A stretch of DNA of 42,374 bases from Candidatus Zixiibacteriota bacterium. Its GTDB lineage: Bacteria > Zixibacteria > MSB-5A5 > GN15 > FEB-12. Made by a program: the position numbers and the translations under genes. The notes beneath the pieces are model-generated. The model saw only the letters and a list, made by a program, of their open reading frames with translations, was not told the origin of the DNA and made no database searches. Below are positions 10,217-21,201 of this stretch, one piece after another. Positions within the stretch are counted from its first letter, which is position 1. Each line of letters begins with the position of its first letter. The stretch lies in assembly GCA_028715215.1 (NCBI GenBank), contig JAQUSF010000017.1, positions 1-42,374 of the forward strand, in the 5' to 3' direction.

Positions 10217-10321
10217 CCTTTTTATCCGGTTTGACATTTCCGATAAATATATTTACCTTTGCCCGCCGACAGTGTATATCTGTCGTTAAAATTTAAACGG
10301 ATACGGGGTTTATTTATACCG

Positions 10322-12124
10322 ATGCATGACCTTTCAAAAATACGGAATTTTTCCATTATTGCCCATATCGACCATGGTAAATCCACCCTCGCTGACCGGC
10401 TTTTGCAGAATACCCGGACCCTTTCGGAAAGGCAGATGCATGACCAGGTGCTCGACTCGATGGACCTGGAGCAGGAGCGGGGGATAACCATCAAGGCTCA
10501 CGCCATAAGGATGAACTACCGGGCTAACGACGGCCGGGAATATACATTCAATCTGATTGACACTCCCGGTCATGTCGATTTCACGTACGAAGTCAGCCGT
10601 TCGCTGGCAGCCTGCGAGGGAGCAATCCTGGTGGTCGATGCCGCCCAGGGTATTGAAGCCCAGACCCTGTCGAACCTTTATCTGGCTATTGATAATAATC
10701 TTGAAATTATACCGGTGGTCAATAAAATCGACCTTCCGGCCGCCAATCCCAACCAGGTGGCCAAAGAAATAGTCGATTTACTGGGGTGCAGACCGGAGGA
10801 TATTATCCCGGTGTCAGCCAAGCTGGGGATAGGTATTGACGAAGTGCTGGAGGCGATTATTAAAGTTGTACCGCCCCCCAAAGGCGATCCCGGGGCGCCG
10901 CTTCAGGCGATGGTCTTCGACTCGGTGTTTGACAGTTACCGTGGCGCCATGCCGCTTATCCGGATGGTCAACGGCCGGATTAGAAAAAACGATAAGATTC
11001 GTTTTTTTTCTCATAACAAGGTTTTCGAAGTCGACGAGGTGGGTATATTAAGGCTGGCACCGGTTCCGGTAGAGGAGCTGGCCGCCGGTGATGTCGGCTA
11101 TGTGTTTGCGTCGATACGCGAGGTGACCGATACTAAAATCGGCGACACGATTACGACCGCGGTGAACCCGGCTGAAAAACCGCTGAGCGGATTTGTCAAT
11201 GTCAAGCCGATGGTTTTCTCCGGCCTGTATCCCTCGGTGGCTGAGGATTTCACGGCTTTGCGCGAAGCCCTCGAAAAAATCAAACTGAACGATTCCTCGT
11301 TGTGGTTTGTGCCGGAGTCTTCCAAAGCGCTGGGATTCGGTTTCCGGGTCGGGTTCCTGGGGCTGTTGCACATGGAGATAGTCACCGAGCGTCTTTCGCG
11401 CGAATACGGCCAGACTATCATCAACACCGTTCCCAACGTTGAATACCATGTTTACACCACCCGGCATGACATGGTGGTGGTGGACAACCCGGCCAATATG
11501 CCGCCGCCAGCGGAGGTGGATTATATCGAGGAACCGTATGTCGATTCCCAGATAATTGCGCCGGCCGAATACATCGGGGCCATTATGCGCCTGGCCACCG
11601 ACCGCCGCGGAGAATACAAGACGACCGAGTACCTGTCGGTCAGCCGGGTGAGCCTCTCGTTCGCCTTCCCGCTTTCGGAAATAATCTTTGATTTTTACGA
11701 TAAACTCAAATCATTCACCCGCGGTTATGCCTCGTTCGATTACGGCGTACCGTACTATAAACGTTCCAACCTGGTCAAACTGGATATTTTAATCAACGGT
11801 GAGGCGGTGGACGCCCTGTCGGTCGTTATTCACCGCGAAAAAGCATATAACTGGGGCGTGAATCTCAACGAGAAACTTCGCACCCTGATACCCCGGCAGA
11901 TGTTCGAGGTGGTCATCCAGGCGGCGATCGGCAACAAGATTATCAGCCGGGCGACCGTGCGTCCTCTGCGCAAGAACGTAACGGCCAAATGTTACGGGGG
12001 CGATATCACCCGCAAACGCAAACTTCTGGAGCGGCAGAAGGAGGGCAAGAGGCGGATGAAAAGCATTGGCCGGGTGGAAATCCCCCAGGAAGCCTTTCTA
12101 GCGGCTTTACAGATCGAGCGGTAA
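10322..12124 (+). CDS. lepA: Elongation factor 4 (LepA), ribosome back-translocase GTPase
   Basis: Translational GTPase that acts on the 70S ribosome. I start at ATG 10322 ([22 protein letters not shown]), the universal LepA N-terminus; the ORF-track start at 10259 adds 21 residues with no match. Motifs are G1 [10 protein letters not shown]2/G3 [13 protein letters not shown] and DTPGHVDF, G4 NKIDLP, then the EF-G-like domains and the LepA-specific C-terminal domain ending [12 protein letters not shown]. At 600 aa it has the family's usual length. In many bacteria lepA is followed directly by lepB or hemW; here about 3.4 kb of AT-rich DNA lies between. Confidence 0.97.
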
Positions 12125-12178
12125 GTTGTTAATTTCCAATTAATAGTTAGAATGTGATATAAATGTGCTTGTTAATTA

Positions 12179-12207
12179 TTGCACCGGTTTTGAATAATTA
12201 ATATATT
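12179..12207 (+). promoter_or_regulatory. Candidate sigma-70 promoter of the island
   Basis: TTGCAC, 17 bases, then TATATT (3/6 and 5/6 consensus). The predicted transcript start falls at or just before the first methylase codon. That fits the absence of a ribosome site and suggests a leaderless or near-leaderless message. Confidence 0.4.
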
Positions 12208-12213
12208 AAAATT

Positions 12214-13161
12214 ATGGTTATCTCAATGAAAAATAAAATAACTACTAAAAATAATTTGGCGAAACCATTCCTGAAATGGGCTGGCGGTAAAACACAACTA
12301 TTGGAGCAATTCGAGAATTTTTATCCACATGAATTGAAAAATGGAAAAATAAAAAATTATTTTGAGCCGTTTGTTGGTAGCGGGGCAGTATTTTTTGAAA
12401 TAATTCAAAGGTACAACGGCATTGAGAAAGTTTATTTAAATGATATTAATAAAGAATTAATTATCGTTTACAAGGTCATTCAAAAAAATGTTTATGAACT
12501 AATAGAGTATTTGGGAAAATTATCTAAAAATTATTTTAGTTTTAATGAACAGAAAAGGCATGAGTTTTACTACTATTCAAGAGAAGCCTATAACAAACAA
12601 AATTATAATAAAAGAAAATACTGCGACGATTGGATTGCAAGAGCATCACAAACGATTTTTCTAAATAAAACCTGTTTTAATGGTTTGTATAGGATAAATG
12701 GAGGAGGTAAATTTAATGTCCCCTCTGGCAGATATAAAAATCCAAAAATAGTTGATAAAGAAAATTTGCTGTTGGTATCTAACCTTTTACAAAATGTTAC
12801 TATAGAAGCCAAAGATTTCGAATCAATTCGAAAAAAAGTCACGCCCGACTCTTTTGTATATTTTGACCCACCTTATAGACCTATAAGTGAAACAGCATGC
12901 TTTACTTCTTATACTAAGACAAACTTCGGTGAAAATGACCAAAAAAGATTGGCTAATTTATTCAAGGAGCTGGATAATATAGGTGCTAAATTAATGCTTA
13001 GCAATTCAGATCCACAAAATCATAACAAAAATGATAATTTTTTTGAGGAGCACTATAAAGGTTTTAACATTAAGAGAGTAACTGCCAACCGGATGATAAA
13101 CTGTGATGCGACTAAACGAGGGAAGATTAAAGAAATAATAATAACAAATTATGAGGTATAA
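12214..13161 (+). CDS. DNA adenine methyltransferase, D12 class (Dam/DpnM-like)
   Basis: Transfers methyl from SAM to adenine N6 in DNA. 315 aa. Motif X is KPFLKWAGGKTQLL (17-30), motif I YFEPFVGSGAVFF (49-61), and the catalytic motif IV DPPY at 218-221. NKTCFNGLYRINGGGKFNVPSGRYKNP (151-177) and YTKTNFGENDQKRL are the stretches shared by the Dam/M.DpnII group, so GATC is the likeliest target, though D12 enzymes with other targets exist. A second ATG lies four codons in (12226); neither has a ribosome site. It heads the island and is 1 nt from the ParB-like gene. Probably the protective methylase for the MutH-like nuclease. Confidence 0.9.
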   Translation: MVISMKNKITTKNNLAKPFLKWAGGKTQLLEQFENFYPHELKNGKIKNYFEPFVGSGAVFFEIIQRYNGIEKVYLNDINKELIIVYKVIQKNVYELIEYLGKLSKNYFSFNEQKRHEFYYYSREAYNKQNYNKRKYCDDWIARASQTIFLNKTCFNGLYRINGGGKFNVPSGRYKNPKIVDKENLLLVSNLLQNVTIEAKDFESIRKKVTPDSFVYFDPPYRPISETACFTSYTKTNFGENDQKRLANLFKELDNIGAKLMLSNSDPQNHNKNDNFFEEHYKGFNIKRVTANRMINCDATKRGKIKEIIITNYEV

Positions 13162-13162
13162 T

Positions 13163-13477
13163 ATGGAGAAATATGTGGGTTACATACCAGTAAAAAAATT
13201 TCATGTTGACTCATATGAACATCAACCGTTATGTAATTCTTTTTATGTTATAAAAAAATATCCTATTAAACAAATAAAGATTAACAAAAAATATTTTGCA
13301 TTTCAAAATGAAGTTGATGAAGAAGAAGTGATTTATATGTTATTTAACTTTGATAGAAAAGCTTGGGAACCGATTATGATAAACGAAAAGGGATATCTTC
13401 TAGATGGTCAACATAGATTAAAGTTGGCAGAAAAGTTGGGATTGAATTATATTGATGTAGTTATTAGAAGATTTTAA
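13163..13477 (+). CDS. Small ParB-N-terminal-like protein
   Basis: 104 aa from ATG 13163, behind GAGG and one base after the methylase stop; the ORF-track start at 13151 lies inside the methylase gene. The C-terminal half has the ParB/sulfiredoxin-fold nuclease-domain hallmark: PIMINEKGYLLDGQHRLKLAEKLGLNYIDVVI (about 70-101), where DGQHR corresponds to the conserved D/N-GxxR loop that in ParB relatives binds nucleotide. There is no helix-turn-helix domain, so it is only the N-terminal fold. Such domains are often found next to phage or R-M methylases. Its exact role here is unknown: DNA binding, nucleotide use or regulation. Confidence 0.65.
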   Translation: MEKYVGYIPVKKFHVDSYEHQPLCNSFYVIKKYPIKQIKINKKYFAFQNEVDEEEVIYMLFNFDRKAWEPIMINEKGYLLDGQHRLKLAEKLGLNYIDVVIRRF

Positions 13478-13517
13478 AACAAGAGTATATACTTAATGTT
13501 TAGGGAGGAATATTACT

Positions 13518-14066
13518 ATGGTAAGAAGAAACTTTTATAAGCATGTGATTGATTTAAAAAAAATTGAAATTAAAAATGATACCAAAGATGAATTTGCTAA
13601 GAAAATAATAGCATTAAAGTATCGAGGGTATGAAGTTGAAGAAATTTCTGATGGAAGAAAAATAGTAATTACAAAACCGGGTGGTAAGAGAGTGCGGGGA
13701 AGTATAAAGAAGGAAGATATTATGGTTTTTATTTATAGCCCATCAGATGATACTTTGTGGCAAATATCACATAAAAATATTTTGGATGAATTAAAAGAAA
13801 AAGGAAAAGTAAATCCAAAAGAAACAATCAAAATATTAGATGTATTTGAAAAAGTCTACAATGGTGAAGAACCTGATAAAGTTCTTTTAGACATTGAATT
13901 TACTAATCCTATTGGTGAATTACCAGAAGCACTTATCAAGGCATATAAATGGATTTGGGGACAAGAAGATGTAAATTATCCACCTCCAAAATATGAAGGA
14001 CGGGCATTGTCGTTTAAGGAGATTGAAAAATTAAGAAATGAACTTAAAGCTAGTTTAGAGGTTTAA
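13518..14066 (+). CDS. Unrecognised 182-aa protein of the island
   Basis: ATG 13518 follows a strong GGGAGG at 9 nt, the best ribosome site in the island. The protein is soluble, Lys/Glu/Ile-rich and mostly alpha-beta in appearance. An N-terminal basic part (residues 1-65) includes ITKPGGKRVRGSIKKED. A middle segment reads FIYSPSDDTLWQISHKNILDEL, and the C-terminal helical part has KAYKWIWGQEDVNYPPPKYEGR. No catalytic motif, zinc site or membrane helix is evident. It is one base from the nuclease gene, whose own ribosome site lies in its last codons, so the two are probably co-translated. It could be a specificity, control or nuclease-partner subunit; I cannot assign a family. Confidence 0.7.
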   Translation: MVRRNFYKHVIDLKKIEIKNDTKDEFAKKIIALKYRGYEVEEISDGRKIVITKPGGKRVRGSIKKEDIMVFIYSPSDDTLWQISHKNILDELKEKGKVNPKETIKILDVFEKVYNGEEPDKVLLDIEFTNPIGELPEALIKAYKWIWGQEDVNYPPPKYEGRALSFKEIEKLRNELKASLEV

Positions 14067-14678
14067 TTGAATAGGGACGAAGCAAAAAGAAAAATTTCTG
14101 AATTGATTGGTAAAGATTTGCGTGTTTTGGCGGAAACATATGGAGTTACTGTATTCAAAGATAATAAAAAGAATAAGGGATGGGCTGGTCATGTAATAGA
14201 AAGGCATCTTAATCTTCCAATTAACTCAGCGCAAGCACCTAATTTTGGTTCATGGGAACTAAAAACAATTTCTTTGAAGTATTTGAAGAACCGAGAATTA
14301 ACAGTAAAAGAAACTATGGCTATAACAATGATTGATCCAGTTAATATTGAAAGAACGGATTTTTTGAATAGTCACTTAAAAAATAAACTCAATAAAATAC
14401 TCATTGCTGCTAGAATATGGACAAGTAAAAATGAAGATTCTTCTATTTTATATGCTGTGACGGAATTCGATTTGACGGACAGAATCATATATAACCAGAT
14501 TGAAGAAGATTATAATTTGGTAAGACAAACGCTTTTATCAAAAGGTTTTGAAGCATTAACTGGAAGGATGGGCATTTACATTCAACCAAGGACTAAAGGA
14601 GCTGGTCATGGGAGTACATCACGAGCTTTTTATGCAAGAGTCCCATTTTTAAAAAAGGTAATATTCCCAAATTTATAG
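14067..14678 (+). CDS. MutH/Sau3AI-family restriction endonuclease-like protein
   Basis: 203 aa, TTG start behind GAGG with 6-nt spacing. The N-terminus aligns with MutH: NKGWAGHVIERHLNL against the MutH KGWAGMLLEWHLG, then SWELKTISL against VELKTIPV. The catalytic residues map to E45, E64 and K66, but the position of the first Asp of D-x(n)-ExK is Asn59 (APNFGSWELK). The later HLKNKLNKILIAAR matches the MutH HxxxKLxRVLW region. The C-terminal IQPRTKGAGHGSTSRAFYARVPFLKKVI is well defined. MutH, Sau3AI and MvaI/BcnI share this fold; next to a Dam-like methylase a GATC-type restriction role is inferred. A mismatch-repair MutH role is unlikely without mutL or mutS nearby. Confidence 0.78.
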   Translation: MNRDEAKRKISELIGKDLRVLAETYGVTVFKDNKKNKGWAGHVIERHLNLPINSAQAPNFGSWELKTISLKYLKNRELTVKETMAITMIDPVNIERTDFLNSHLKNKLNKILIAARIWTSKNEDSSILYAVTEFDLTDRIIYNQIEEDYNLVRQTLLSKGFEALTGRMGIYIQPRTKGAGHGSTSRAFYARVPFLKKVIFPNL

Positions 14679-14694
14679 TTAACATTTTTATGAT

Positions 14695-15477
14695 ATGAAT
14701 AAAATACCTCTTGATTTTCATCCTGAAAATACAACCTGCTGGTCGTTTCCAGAGCGGGGTAGTTGGGCGACACATAACCCGAAATACAGGGGTAATTTTG
14801 CCCCTCAGATACCTCGCAATATTATCTTAAATTATTCTGATGAAGGCGATACTGTCTTAGACCCGATGGTTGGTTCTGGTACGACGTTAATTGAATGTAA
14901 ATTATTACATCGTGATGGAATTGGATTTGATATAAATCCTTCTGCTGTCAAATTAACAAAAGATGCTTTAGAATTTGAATTTGAAACAAAATCTAAACAA
15001 TATGTATCTGTTGGAGATGTTAGAACTTTAAAAGATATTAAAGATAATTCCATAGATTTAATATGTACTCATCCGCCATATTTAAATTTGGTTACTTATT
15101 CTAATGGAAAAATTGAAAAAGATTTGTCTAATATTTCAAGTCCCGCTAAATTCTGTGACGAATTCAGACCTGGTATTGAGGAAATGCACAGAGTTCTTAA
15201 ACCTGATCGGTATTGTGCCATTTTAATTGGTGATACCAGAAAAGGGCAACATTATGTCCCTCTGGCCTACTTTGTTCTTCAGGAGTTTTTAAAAGTTGGT
15301 TTTGCTCTAAAAGAAGATATAATAAAAGCACAACATAATTGTACTTACTCAAAGCATTGGACCGCGAGTGCAAAAAAATATAAATTTTACCTTATTATGC
15401 ATGAACATCTTTTTGTTTTCCGAAAGCCTAGAGCTGGCGAAGACCTGGCCCGGATTCGCTGGAGTGTAATAAGATAA
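14695..15477 (+). CDS. Second SAM-dependent DNA methyltransferase (N4/N6 class)
   Basis: 260 aa from ATG 14695 with a weak ribosome site. Motif I is VLDPMVGSGTTLIEC (54-68), followed by the acidic turn IGFDINPSAV. Motif IV is THPPY (125-129), within SIDLICTHPPYLNLVTYS. The N-terminal WSFPERGSWATHNPKYRGNFAPQIPRNII and the end MHEHLFVFRKP match a widespread group of amino-methyltransferases annotated as N4-cytosine or N6-adenine DNA methylases. The order is I then IV, with no evident long target-recognition domain. HPPY does not by itself decide m4C from m6A. As the last gene of the island it may protect a second site, a second strand or single-stranded DNA, as DpnA does in DpnII. Confidence 0.82.
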   Translation: MNKIPLDFHPENTTCWSFPERGSWATHNPKYRGNFAPQIPRNIILNYSDEGDTVLDPMVGSGTTLIECKLLHRDGIGFDINPSAVKLTKDALEFEFETKSKQYVSVGDVRTLKDIKDNSIDLICTHPPYLNLVTYSNGKIEKDLSNISSPAKFCDEFRPGIEEMHRVLKPDRYCAILIGDTRKGQHYVPLAYFVLQEFLKVGFALKEDIIKAQHNCTYSKHWTASAKKYKFYLIMHEHLFVFRKPRAGEDLARIRWSVIR

Positions 15478-15503
15478 AAAATCACTGAAATAACGGATTT
15501 TTT
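15476..15503 (+). terminator. Weak AT-rich hairpin at the end of the island
   Basis: AAAAAATC and GATTTTTT can pair over 8 bp around a 12-base loop, with the T-rich arm serving as the tail. It begins inside the stop codon of the last methyltransferase. There is only one G-C pair, so termination strength is doubtful. Confidence 0.35.
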
Positions 15504-15607
15504 ACCTCCTCTAAGCACTTGGCAGACAACCCGTTTTTACGTATATTTCTGTAAACTAACCCCCCTTTTCTCTAAAGAAATATGGGGATAAACCGATAAT
15601 TTCACGT

Positions 15608-16333
15608 ATGGATAGCGATTTCCTGATACAGGAACATAAACAGCTCGAGACTCAAAAAGAGGCTCGTAAATTCCTCAACCGTAAAGAACGCAAACCCCTC
15701 TGGCGGGAATATCTCGACACCGCCATTATCGCCCTGGTGGCGGCTTTGCTTTTACGCATTTTCGTCGTCTCCGCCTACCGGGTGAGTTCGGCTTCGATGG
15801 AGGACACCCTGTTCGAGGGCGACTATATCTTCGTCAACAAGCTGGCGTTCAAGTACGGTACCGACCCTAAAGTAGGCGACATTATCGTTTTCAAGTATCC
15901 CAATAATCCCAACAAGGATTATATCAAGCGGATAATGGCCGGTCCGGGACAGGTGGTCCAGATAGCCGACAAGGTTCTGTTTGTCGATGGCGAGGTCGCT
16001 CCGATTCCATTAAACACCAAGAACATCGACCAGCGGATTATCCCCGCCGACCTTTCGTTCCGGGATAATTTCGGGCCCTTCACCGTACCTTCGGGGGAAT
16101 ATTTCGTCATGGGCGACAACCGCGACGACAGCCGTGACAGCCGCTTCTGGGGTACTGTCCCGCTGGAAAATATCAAGGGTAAAGCTGTTTTCGTTTACTG
16201 GTCATGGGAGCCGGACCCCGACGCTCCGGGCTGGGGCTTTCCATACATACACAATGTCTTCCAGTGGATAGGCCACGGGTTGTATAACTTCCCGACTCAT
16301 ATCCGCTGGTCAAGACTTGGTACCGCGTTATAA
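15608..16333 (+). CDS. lepB: Signal peptidase I
   Basis: Inner-membrane serine protease that removes signal peptides from exported proteins. 241 aa. One N-terminal helix (about 38-56) precedes the catalytic Ser63 in SSASMEDTL. The catalytic Lys107 lies in [13 protein letters not shown], and box E is [15 protein letters not shown]. The periplasmic end [17 protein letters not shown] is lineage-like. The stop overlaps the hemW start (TAATG), so translation is coupled. It is separated from lepA by the AT-rich island. No strong ribosome site is seen before ATG 15608. Confidence 0.95.
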
Positions 16334-17655: not shown

Positions 17656-20600
17656 ATGTTAAAGAAATTCGTTTCTTTACTAATCCTCACCTTATTTATG
17701 TTTTCTTTCATGGCCGTTACTGCCGGAGCGAAATCCAGGATTAAGGACGAACGCTCCGAAAAGCGGTCGCATTACGGCTTCATGTACGGTAAGAAGTTAA
17801 TGCCCATCCCCAGACAAAGTTCACCGGTTATGGTAAAGGATGATTATCGAGTCTCACTTGGCACTTCCGGTGACGGCAATTCCCCCGGCGCAATAGTTGC
17901 TCATACCTTGTACGAGATGCAACAGCCTTCATCGATGGGCCGCCAGATTGACTGGCGTAATCCCAATCCGCAAATTCATATGGCCTATACCCAGATGTTT
18001 GCGGTGGGTGGTCCCCGCTATGCGTCGTACAATGTTTATGACCCCGTTTCGGGTACCTGGCCTTTGACAGCCGATGTTGGCTGCCCTGTTGCGCCTTGGG
18101 GTTTAGGGATGGCAGGCGGTGCCAGTCTTGATGTAAGGCCTGATGGCGGGTCGGTTGTTGCCTGTCACTATCGGACAACCGAAGGTGAACTTGACGATTA
18201 TAACACGACGGTCTATATTGACCAAACCGCGGGCTCAGGTTTGTACTGCGGTTTTGGCAGTGGCAGTTCGGCTCCCAATGACTCGGCTTCCGCCGCCATG
18301 GAACCACCACCGGAATACATCTGGCCGAAACTTGAATACCATATAAACGGCTCTGACACCGTCATCTATGCCCTTTCATGGGAAATGGTGGAATATAATC
18401 TGGGGACACTGGTTCTTTTCAGAAATGTTGGTTCCAATTTACAGGGTTCGTGGGAGACCCATATTATTGATACAATTTTCTATCCTAATCATGCTATTGC
18501 CAGTTCCCGCGTTTCCACAAAAGTAGCCTGTTGCTGGCTGGAAGAAGCGGCTGAAGGTGTAGAGGGTAATAACGATGTCTGGTACTTGGTATCATACGAT
18601 ATGGGTGCCACCTGGAATCCATATTACAAAGTGAATGTCACTAATTACAACCCGTACGAACCGGGTTTTAGAGCCTGGATTGAGCTGTCCTGTTTATATG
18701 ATTCTAAAGACGATTTACACATTGTATGGAACGCCAGTGTATATAATGGGGATGGAACTGAAGCGGATTCAAGAAGTTGCCGACTATTTCACTGGACGGA
18801 GAATACCGATCTTATTAGCACCATTCACGATGCCACCTGGGATCCGATGTTAAATTGTGGTATGGGCGGGCCAAATGTTTTAAATATTGGTCATATAAGT
18901 ATTTCCGTATGCGACTCACTAGGGCTTGATGATCGATTATATGTTATCTGGTCTCAATGGGGCGATCCTGAAAAGGGTGATTCTACTGATTGCGCTGACC
19001 CCATTTTTGTAGGATTTGAGAAAGGTGCCAATGCTGATATTTATATGTCACAATCTAATTTGGATGGTCTTGCTTGGGAAGTCCCTTATAACCTGACCAA
19101 AACCAAAACACCAGGTTGTGACACGACAACAGGTAACGAGTGTGATAATGAAACCTGGTCGAGCATGTCACGTTATTGTATGGATAATAGAGACTGGTCC
19201 GGTTTGGACTGGTCAAGTGCCAGCGAGGCTTTAACTGTAAATCCACGACCCGATCAACCTGAAAAATGGCTTTTTCTAGATGTCTTTTATGTTAACGATG
19301 TTGCTCCCGGTTTATCCGAGCTTGTAGATTCCCGTTCTGAAAACGCAGTTAATTATAATGTTCCCTTAAAGTGGTTCCGATTACCATATGTTTATCGTAA
19401 AGTAGAGAGTAGAATGCATTTATCTCCACGTAAATTAAATTATCCATCCTATATTCGACATGGTGAACAAACTAAGTATTATGTAACTATAGAAAATATT
19501 GGTGATTCTGATTTAGTACTATCAGATATATATATTGAGAAGGTAACATATGAGGATGTTGATTGGCTGGGAATAGATCAAATAAATATGACCATATCTT
19601 GGGGTCCGCCTGATAATATTGATACATTAATCGTTACAGTAAATAAAGATGGTATAATTTATTCACCAGGGACTATTGTCAACCTTGTGGGCCGGGTTGC
19701 TCTTAAAAGAGTAATAGGGGACTATGGGTCATATGATACTACTTATCTGCCTGTAGATATCATGGTTGCTGATACTGTAGTTGATATTATATGGGATACT
19801 ATTTCTACCCTCAAAACGGATTTAGTTGTATCCAGCAACGGTAACATGGGTAAAAGCAATGATGGTTTTGTTAATATGGACTTTGCGAATAATTATTATT
19901 CCTTTGAATGTGACGATTCTTCCAATTATAATAATCGGTCATTAGACACAATCCCCGGGAATGCGGCGGTATATCTATATAGTGCCTCACCGGTTATATT
20001 ATCAGCTCAGATAGAAGGTCCTGATACTCATGTAACAGCCAGCTGGGCGATCTTTAACGAAGAACTGGAATCTCCCAACACATTCAAACCCGTTACCGGT
20101 GAAACACCAAGCGGGGTAAAATTATCTAAACCTGATGATTATTTTTTTCATCATGACTCACTTACCGGTCATTTAAGTTATGAAGCTTTTCATACCGGTT
20201 CTTTTGTTACGGTGGACTCTCACCTGGTGGTGGAGAAAACCTACTACGCTCCGATAGGAGAAACTTATAGCCAGCTTTATTCTTCCATTGTGTCCTTGAT
20301 GCGTATTTTTTCCTATGATGGACAGGCTCATAGTGGTTTAATAATTGGCGAAGCATTTGATTGGGATATACCATCCGACTCGGGTGTTTATAACTTTTCT
20401 GGAGTCATACCAAACTTAGACTTGATTTATATGCAAGGCGGTAATTGGACTGAACCACATGGTGACTCATTGCAATGTGTAAATAATTGTACTCGCACGG
20501 CGGGAGCGATTAGGGTTGGTTACTACACTCAAGCTGAATATAATGCAAATCCTGTCATGGCACATACCGAGCCCATCTGGGGAGGTTATGCAGAACTTAA

Positions 20601-21201
20601 TGAAACCTATGTCTATCCAAGGAAAGTACAAAGTGATTTTGAAGGTGACTATTATTACAAAAAAGAGGGCTTTTTACCCATTGAATTATACAGAAACATG
20701 GTGAATAATTCCGGTCTGAATGCACAACCTTCTTCAGTTATAAAAGACCAGCACATTGTATTAACCTATTTTAACAATTATACTCTCAAGGCTACTGATA
20801 GCTTATTAATCTGGACACTAATGGTGTCAAAACCCCCGATAATGAAGGATATTATTTATTCGACTGAAATTTATGATTCACTATTCTATGAAATCAATCG
20901 TGGTCGATCCTGGTTGATAGCTTCTTTGAGTTCATTGAAGACGAATTTCAAGAGTCACTACTGTATAGGCATGACGGGCAACGCTGATTGCTCGGCTTCC
21001 GAAGACCCGGATATTTCGGATATTACCCGTTTGATTTCGTTCCTGTATCTGCAGGGTGCCGAACTTTGCTGTGTGGCGGAAGCCGACGTTGACAATTCGG
21101 GCGGTAGCGTCCCAACGGTGGGTGATGTCGATATTTCCGACATTACCTATCTGATTGCGCACCTGTATCTTGACCATCGCGCTCTCAAACCCTGCCCGTA
21201 A
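17656..21201 (+). CDS. Large secreted protein with BNR-like region and C-terminal dockerin-like domain
   Basis: 1181 aa from ATG 17656, behind AAGGAGTG. A signal peptide is clear (MLKKFVSLLILTLFMFSFMAVTAGA). The N-terminal half has sialidase/BNR-like features: SYDMGATWNP is an Asp-box, and there are repeated WLEE, IVWNASVY and VIWSQWG strands, suggesting a beta-propeller, though no catalytic site is identified. Residues ~600-690 look like an Ig-type domain (TKYYVTIENIGDSDLVLSDIYIEKV). The last ~75 residues are a paired dockerin-like module: NADCSASEDPDISDITRLISFLYL and EADVDNSGG...DVDISDITYLIAHLYL. The gene is monocistronic with its own consensus promoter and terminator. Probably extracellular or cell-surface; substrate or partner unknown. 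Confidence 0.85.
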   Translation: MLKKFVSLLILTLFMFSFMAVTAGAKSRIKDERSEKRSHYGFMYGKKLMPIPRQSSPVMVKDDYRVSLGTSGDGNSPGAIVAHTLYEMQQPSSMGRQIDWRNPNPQIHMAYTQMFAVGGPRYASYNVYDPVSGTWPLTADVGCPVAPWGLGMAGGASLDVRPDGGSVVACHYRTTEGELDDYNTTVYIDQTAGSGLYCGFGSGSSAPNDSASAAMEPPPEYIWPKLEYHINGSDTVIYALSWEMVEYNLGTLVLFRNVGSNLQGSWETHIIDTIFYPNHAIASSRVSTKVACCWLEEAAEGVEGNNDVWYLVSYDMGATWNPYYKVNVTNYNPYEPGFRAWIELSCLYDSKDDLHIVWNASVYNGDGTEADSRSCRLFHWTENTDLISTIHDATWDPMLNCGMGGPNVLNIGHISISVCDSLGLDDRLYVIWSQWGDPEKGDSTDCADPIFVGFEKGANADIYMSQSNLDGLAWEVPYNLTKTKTPGCDTTTGNECDNETWSSMSRYCMDNRDWSGLDWSSASEALTVNPRPDQPEKWLFLDVFYVNDVAPGLSELVDSRSENAVNYNVPLKWFRLPYVYRKVESRMHLSPRKLNYPSYIRHGEQTKYYVTIENIGDSDLVLSDIYIEKVTYEDVDWLGIDQINMTISWGPPDNIDTLIVTVNKDGIIYSPGTIVNLVGRVALKRVIGDYGSYDTTYLPVDIMVADTVVDIIWDTISTLKTDLVVSSNGNMGKSNDGFVNMDFANNYYSFECDDSSNYNNRSLDTIPGNAAVYLYSASPVILSAQIEGPDTHVTASWAIFNEELESPNTFKPVTGETPSGVKLSKPDDYFFHHDSLTGHLSYEAFHTGSFVTVDSHLVVEKTYYAPIGETYSQLYSSIVSLMRIFSYDGQAHSGLIIGEAFDWDIPSDSGVYNFSGVIPNLDLIYMQGGNWTEPHGDSLQCVNNCTRTAGAIRVGYYTQAEYNANPVMAHTEPIWGGYAELNETYVYPRKVQSDFEGDYYYKKEGFLPIELYRNMVNNSGLNAQPSSVIKDQHIVLTYFNNYTLKATDSLLIWTLMVSKPPIMKDIIYSTEIYDSLFYEINRGRSWLIASLSSLKTNFKSHYCIGMTGNADCSASEDPDISDITRLISFLYLQGAELCCVAEADVDNSGGSVPTVGDVDISDITYLIAHLYLDHRALKPCP
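20973..21201 (+). other. Dockerin-like calcium-binding module (coding segment)
   Basis: Two ~30-residue units each have an Asp-rich loop and the DISDITxLIxxLYL helix, bracketed by Cys residues. The same module, with very similar wording, is N-terminal in the exported protein at 6673-7869. No cohesin domain is visible in the window. Confidence 0.75.

Follow-up and report, generated by a model that had tools for sequence, protein, structure and literature searches.

The window, by which the whole analyzed stretch of 42,374 nucleotides is meant, encodes lepA, five small open reading frames (12214-15477), lepB, and hemW in that order; the features from lepA to lepB all lie on the forward strand:

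lepA, 10259..12124, + strand: PF06421 match at 6.5e-48; left flank, its 3' end being the insertion site
M1, 12214..13161, + strand: Dam/DpnM-type N6-adenine DNA methylase, 315 aa; DPPY motif; predicted GATC
P2, 13151..13477, + strand: small DGQHR/ParB-like accessory protein, 108 aa; 11-bp overlap with the end of M1
U3, 13518..14066, + strand: orphan-family protein, 182 aa; no family above any cut-off
R4, 14067..14678, + strand: MutH/Sau3AI-fold nuclease, 203 aa; predicted GATC endonuclease
M5, 14695..15477, + strand: second DNA methylase, 260 aa; PF01555; motif order X-I-IV with HPPY
Last 15 codons of M5, 15430..15477, + strand: host-like GC; homologous to a remnant in the congener G001
lepB, 15608..16333, + strand: PF10502 match at 7.9e-50; right flank

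The original prediction, made from this sequence, placed five same-strand genes between lepA and lepB, and the interval it gave deviates by no more than about 130 bases. The sharply different base composition that it described is also borne out, with GC contents of 0.297, 0.260, 0.293, 0.325, and 0.350 for M1, P2, U3, R4, and M5, compared to 0.532 for lepA and 0.500 for lepB-hemW. The genome, from a member of Zixibacteria, a candidate phylum, totals 3.2 Mb in 167 contigs. No tRNA was found in a scan of the window, and scans of the window for promoters and terminators gave scores no better than those of shuffled sequences. Downstream of the cassette, positions 17656-21201 encode a secreted protein of 1181 aa with C-terminal dockerin-like calcium-binding repeats (recognized by eye).

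M1, anticipated as a Dam-like methylase, belongs to the GATC-directed Dam/DpnM family (TIGR00571, 288 bits against a cut-off of 115; PF02086, 2.2e-62), and among structures it is closest to DpnM (2dpm, E 1.1e-57), followed by Escherichia coli Dam (4rtj, 4e-29). Likewise, R4 is the MutH-like nuclease that had been proposed: it matches MutH in Pfam (PF02976, 1.1e-13), its sequence shows weak similarity to MutH and the N-terminal half of Sau3AI, and its AlphaFold (AF2) model (pLDDT 91) matches both MutH (2aoq, TM 0.80) and Sau3AI (4pxg, TM 0.73). The best NCBIfam match of R4 is Sau3AI, at 61.4 bits against a cut-off of 300 for that family (NF040973) and over positions 5-189 of the 475 in the model; scores against the MutH equivalogs NF003458 and TIGR02248 are 51.7 and 36.3 bits, respectively, with cut-offs of 243 and 229.9.

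The active site of R4 carries the motif PN-x4-ELK (N59, E64, and K66), in which N59 aligns with the Asp of the MutH QDF segment, presumably D70 in E. coli MutH numbering. Asn is found at this position in 83 of 84 R4 homologues, a new feature of the family; the sole Asp-bearing homologue is the third tandem copy in the Poribacterium locus L055. The remainder of the active-site triad of the PD-(D/E)XK MutH group, Glu64 and Lys66, is invariant, as are E45 and K107, and R4 retains the R-x-K-G segment seen when it is aligned with MutH. It should be noted that the loop spanning residues 55-60 has a pLDDT below 50, so that no other part of R4 is modeled with less confidence. Loss of a metal-site acid usually kills a nuclease, and since Asn stands where MutH has its catalytic Asp, activity of R4 is not to be assumed. 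R4 is nevertheless taken here as a probable active nuclease because of its linkage to methylases and the GATC depletion described below, and this is the weakest step in the interpretation. Two or three tandem copies of R4 follow a single DpnA-like methylase in the poribacterial loci L035, L055, and L056.

A scan of GTDB genomes, from which the best 80 R4 homologues were kept (52-72% identical), recovered representatives from Ignavibacteria, Poribacteria, Planctomycetes, Chloroflexi, Deltaproteobacteria, Cyanobacteria, Aquificota, and other groups. Within the phylum, R4 is encoded by 2 of 133 genomes and is missing from 131, and the closest homologues of the R4 in the window belong to other phyla. 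No R4 was found on plasmids, and among phages it was detected in one unannotated 595-kb record. Clustering of the neighbors of R4 in 81 loci revealed a DpnA-like methylase in 60 and Dam in 21 plus the window; three loci carry both methylase families and two carry neither in the stretch that was counted. Across these loci, the linkage of the MutH/Sau3AI-fold nuclease to a preceding methylase is conserved almost without exception. The two partner families are unrelated and both of GATC type. The DpnA-like partner shares 55% identity with the second methylase in a Dam-methylase-nuclease operon on the Lactococcus plasmid pSRQ700, known as LlaDCHI, a DpnII-type system for GATC.

The five-gene order was sought elsewhere, and it recurs with one or two genes missing, as Dam-P2-R4-M5 (L039), Dam-P2-x-R4-M5 (L038), and Dam-U3-R4-M5 (L045); the exact set was not found outside of the window among the R4 loci examined. 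The methylase and R4 are non-adjacent in 9 of 21 Dam-type loci (window counted) versus 3 of 57 DpnA-type loci, and of the latter three, one has a tandem R4 copy alone in the intervening slot and another has no same-strand gene listed there. Across loci the slot contains U3, P2, a member of one of two further families (of 174 and 197 aa), a 385-aa protein that matches NucS_C weakly, or a 529-aa DGQHR/DndB-like protein, and in the window it contains both P2 and U3. Small proteins resembling ADP-ribosyltransferases (by eye) were also observed near or between the methylase and R4 (L031:5469-5993, L066:2302-2802, and L134:1974-2495).

P2 had been described as ParB-like. Residues 64-105, comprising a DGQHR segment, yield weak matches to ParB-like PHROG families (E about 2e-4), and P2 has no match in Pfam; because the DGQHR segment alone matches, and weakly, the description holds at the level of a motif and not beyond. 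P2 homologues are located between the methylase and R4 in L038, L039, and L074, with DGQHR invariant. A 111-aa protein with a DGQHR-like motif (DGANRT), comparable to P2, follows DpnI at the lepA-lepB junction of G019 (L115:3232-3567). U3, for its part, is the protein without known family of the original prediction, and it remains so: nothing scored above any cut-off in family searches, no match was found among PDB sequences, and a fold search with its fairly confident predicted model (pLDDT 84) returned no match at E <= 0.001. Of 40 R4-bearing genomes, eight encode U3, every time at the R4 locus; a questionable ninth match (G167, E 1e-3) lies outside of this count. Two of 61 relatives encode U3 and both also carry R4, the match in the same-order relative G041 being at C8:37758-38270. 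A pattern search of viral contigs for U3 found none, and on the viral contig L134 the genes for a DpnA-like methylase and R4 are preceded by one for a distant U3-like protein. U3 is thus an orphan family seen only beside R4, a further new feature of these loci.

The second methyltransferase is likewise confirmed, as M5 is an N6_N4 methylase (PF01555, 1.9e-28; PDLC03376, 248 bits) in which motif X is followed by motif I (DPMVGSGTT) and by HPPY as motif IV, an assignment made by eye. HPPY in place of D/N/SPPY is a new feature of this family, found in all 16 of the 16 homologues inspected. An identity of M5 with DpnA was considered and rejected, given the X-I-IV order, the HPPY motif, and matches to DpnA structures over 43-52 residues at motif I only. 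Among R4 loci, M5 was found only in those of Dam type (13 of 21 versus 0 of 59 others, P 6e-10). In Fusobacterium vincentii, Dam is followed by a DpnII-family nuclease (PF04556, 4.7e-109), an Mrr-type nuclease, and M5; since M5 occurs there with Dam and a nuclease of another family, it accompanies GATC systems and not R4 as such. This association with Dam suggests, by analogy, that M5 could be a second GATC methylase in a DpnA-like role. DpnA of pneumococcus methylates single-stranded DNA (PMC3573125). In a member of the same family, G014 (L228:1501-3123), DpnI is directly followed by an M5 homologue 67.6% identical to that of the window, R4 is absent, and the Dam-like match is weak. Because M5 adjoins DpnI without Dam in this genome, a role as a maker of ordinary m6A at GATC fits poorly: either its mark would be one that DpnI ignores (e.g., on cytosine) or the gene would be a relic of a replaced system.

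In 327 kb of this genome, 294 GATC sites were observed against 1291 expected (obs/exp 0.23), the lowest ratio of the 16 four-base palindromes. Among relatives the ratio is 0.28 in the congener G001, 0.61 in G019, 0.92 in G014, and 0.95 in G010, and pooled around 53 R4 loci it is 0.60, with some of these loci lacking depletion. Low GATC tracks the presence of a GATC- or GmATC-cutting system (12 of 18 versus 2 of 23, P 1.6e-4), in a hand-assembled table of 40 small relative samples plus this genome, with a threshold of 0.65 picked after viewing the data and relatedness left uncorrected. Depletion is not specific to R4, because it is also seen in genomes without R4, including the congener. GATC is the predicted target on indirect but concordant grounds: the two families of partner methylases, the MutH/Sau3AI fold, the R-x-K-G segment of R4, and the depletion.

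The lepA-lepB neighborhood, proposed to be common, is adjacent in only part of the lineage: lepA and lepB are direct neighbors in G010 and G017, 155 and 79 bp apart. Comparison of this junction among relatives indicates that the phylum as a whole does not share the cassette genes as an ancestral trait, and these empty junctions, together with the rarity of R4 in the phylum and its nearest homologues in other phyla, uphold the proposal of an imported restriction cassette. Directly 3' of lepA, other genomes carry DpnI (G019 and G030), a HARE-HTH protein (G001 and G013), a 766-aa methylase fusion (G045), or a fusion of a PLD (NgoFVII-like) nuclease with the C-terminal wHTH domain of DpnI (G035, L129:2304-3110; G024, L257:530-1324, assigned by the same layout as in G035). 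The last of these looks like a GmATC-directed nuclease of new build. Four of the ten DpnI_C genes in 61 genomes are located at this site. The DpnI proteins of G019 and G030 share 43% identity and are likely separate arrivals, because each is closer to a DpnI sited elsewhere (G056, G038) than to the other; moreover, G013 and G035 differ in their inserts while their lepA genes are 96% identical. On the basis of the differing inserts, the separate DpnI arrivals, and this last contrast, the 3' end of lepA is a site at which restriction cassettes are swapped in this order. By analogy, this swapping may resemble that of pneumococcus, where strains have either DpnI or DpnII (PMC3573125). At G004:C10 (L223/L250), a broken N-terminal dam fragment with stops directly precedes an intact DpnI, as in 'dam-replacing' genes. 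Literature searches found no paper on restriction in Zixibacteria and, by title and abstract, none on lepA as a defence hotspot.

In the congener G001, 15 codons resembling the end of M5 (11 of 15 residues) are found just upstream of lepB, continuous with shared intergenic DNA, and the last 15 codons of M5 in the window have a GC content of 0.56 versus 0.34 for the rest of the gene (P 0.002). Remnants of M5 or Dam were sought at the lepA 3' end of other relatives and none were found, the M5 tail of G001 being alone. This remnant, the GC content of the M5 tail, and the strong GATC depletion in both genomes suggest that an older GATC cassette was present in the genus, was replaced in G001, and was possibly overwritten here by an AT-rich allele, bearing in mind that a stretch of 15 codons is short.

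Very probably, then, the cassette is a type II restriction-modification system directed at GATC that was acquired by horizontal transfer. M1 would methylate the adenine of host GATC sites and R4 would cut unmethylated GATC in incoming DNA, with M5 as a second methylase in the place held by DpnA in DpnII systems, and P2 and U3 as accessory proteins in the variable methylase-nuclease slot that probably tune or guard the nuclease; the cassette lies at the 3' end of lepA, where such systems have been swapped repeatedly in this order. The earlier description of the set as not a standard type II system goes too far, since the core of GATC methylase and GATC-type nuclease is type II, while the MutH-type nuclease with its changed active-site residue, the HPPY methylase, and the variable Dam-nuclease slot are unusual. 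A more far-reaching combination, in which the lepA 3' end behaves like the pneumococcal dpn locus by interchanging GATC- and GmATC-cutting systems, R4 is a family of GATC nucleases that functions with Asn instead of the catalytic Asp, and M5, with its HPPY motif, is a second methylase of a new type leaving a mark that DpnI tolerates, is put forward tentatively.

Among the alternatives, the island could hold two systems, one directed at GATC and made up of Dam and R4, the other of different function and made up of M5 together with P2 and/or U3, as might be read from the pairing of M5 with DpnI in G014, from long M5 relatives beside a P2-like protein in G042, and from the distance of M5 from DpnA; the restriction of M5, after R4, to Dam-type loci and the failure to find U3 apart from R4 make this rather unlikely. 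Less probable still is that the R4 family binds or nicks GATC, for example in strand-directed repair or regulation, and does not cut it. The loss of the metal-binding Asp in nearly all homologues and the low-confidence loop would suit such a protein, and MutH itself is a nickase that depends on MutL, but compact methylase-nuclease pairs in many phyla, their patchy spread, and GATC depletion are the outcome expected of restriction, and E45, E64, K66, and K107 are invariant, with Asp present in one tandem paralogue. That the genes are domesticated Dam-MutH mismatch-repair or cell-cycle functions is hardly credible: Dam and MutH do work together in E. coli repair, but R4 falls far short of the cut-off for MutH equivalogs, nearly all relatives lack it, the GC content is low, and R4 is linked elsewhere to DpnA-like methylases, and a mismatch-repair role was rejected on scores and distribution. 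The preferred assignment would make GATC restriction the setting of a MutH-fold nuclease family that is widespread but scarcely described and has an altered catalytic residue, and it provides the orphan family U3 with a firm genomic context; it also suggests that GATC- and GmATC-cutting systems came to alternate at a single chromosomal site independently in an uncultured phylum, as they do in pneumococcus.

Compared to known systems, the cassette is like DpnII and LlaDCHI in combining a Dam-type methylase, a second methylase, and a GATC nuclease in one operon, but R4 has the MutH and not the DpnII fold (PF04556, the DpnII-family nuclease, was sought in genome G000 and is absent), M5 is not DpnA-like, and P2 and U3 are extra. 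Sau3AI is likewise a MutH-fold GATC nuclease, but it is about 475-490 aa long, whereas R4 has 203 aa and lacks the second MutH-like domain, and the Sau3AI partner is a cytosine-C5 methylase whereas the window encodes an adenine methylase. Mismatch-repair MutH shares its fold and recognition segment with R4 but is a repair nickase with the Asp conserved and no linked methylase. The Kat-MutH restriction-modification pair of katablepharid mitochondria similarly joins a MutH-like nuclease to a methylase in two genes with GATC as predicted target; its partner is instead a C5 methylase, and its authors detected neither methylation nor toxicity (PMC8099122). Finally, DpnI, of the Dam-replacing family, differs in being a single gene that needs no methylase and cuts GmATC, but it occupies the same genomic site in G019 and G030 and recognizes the same sequence when it is methylated.
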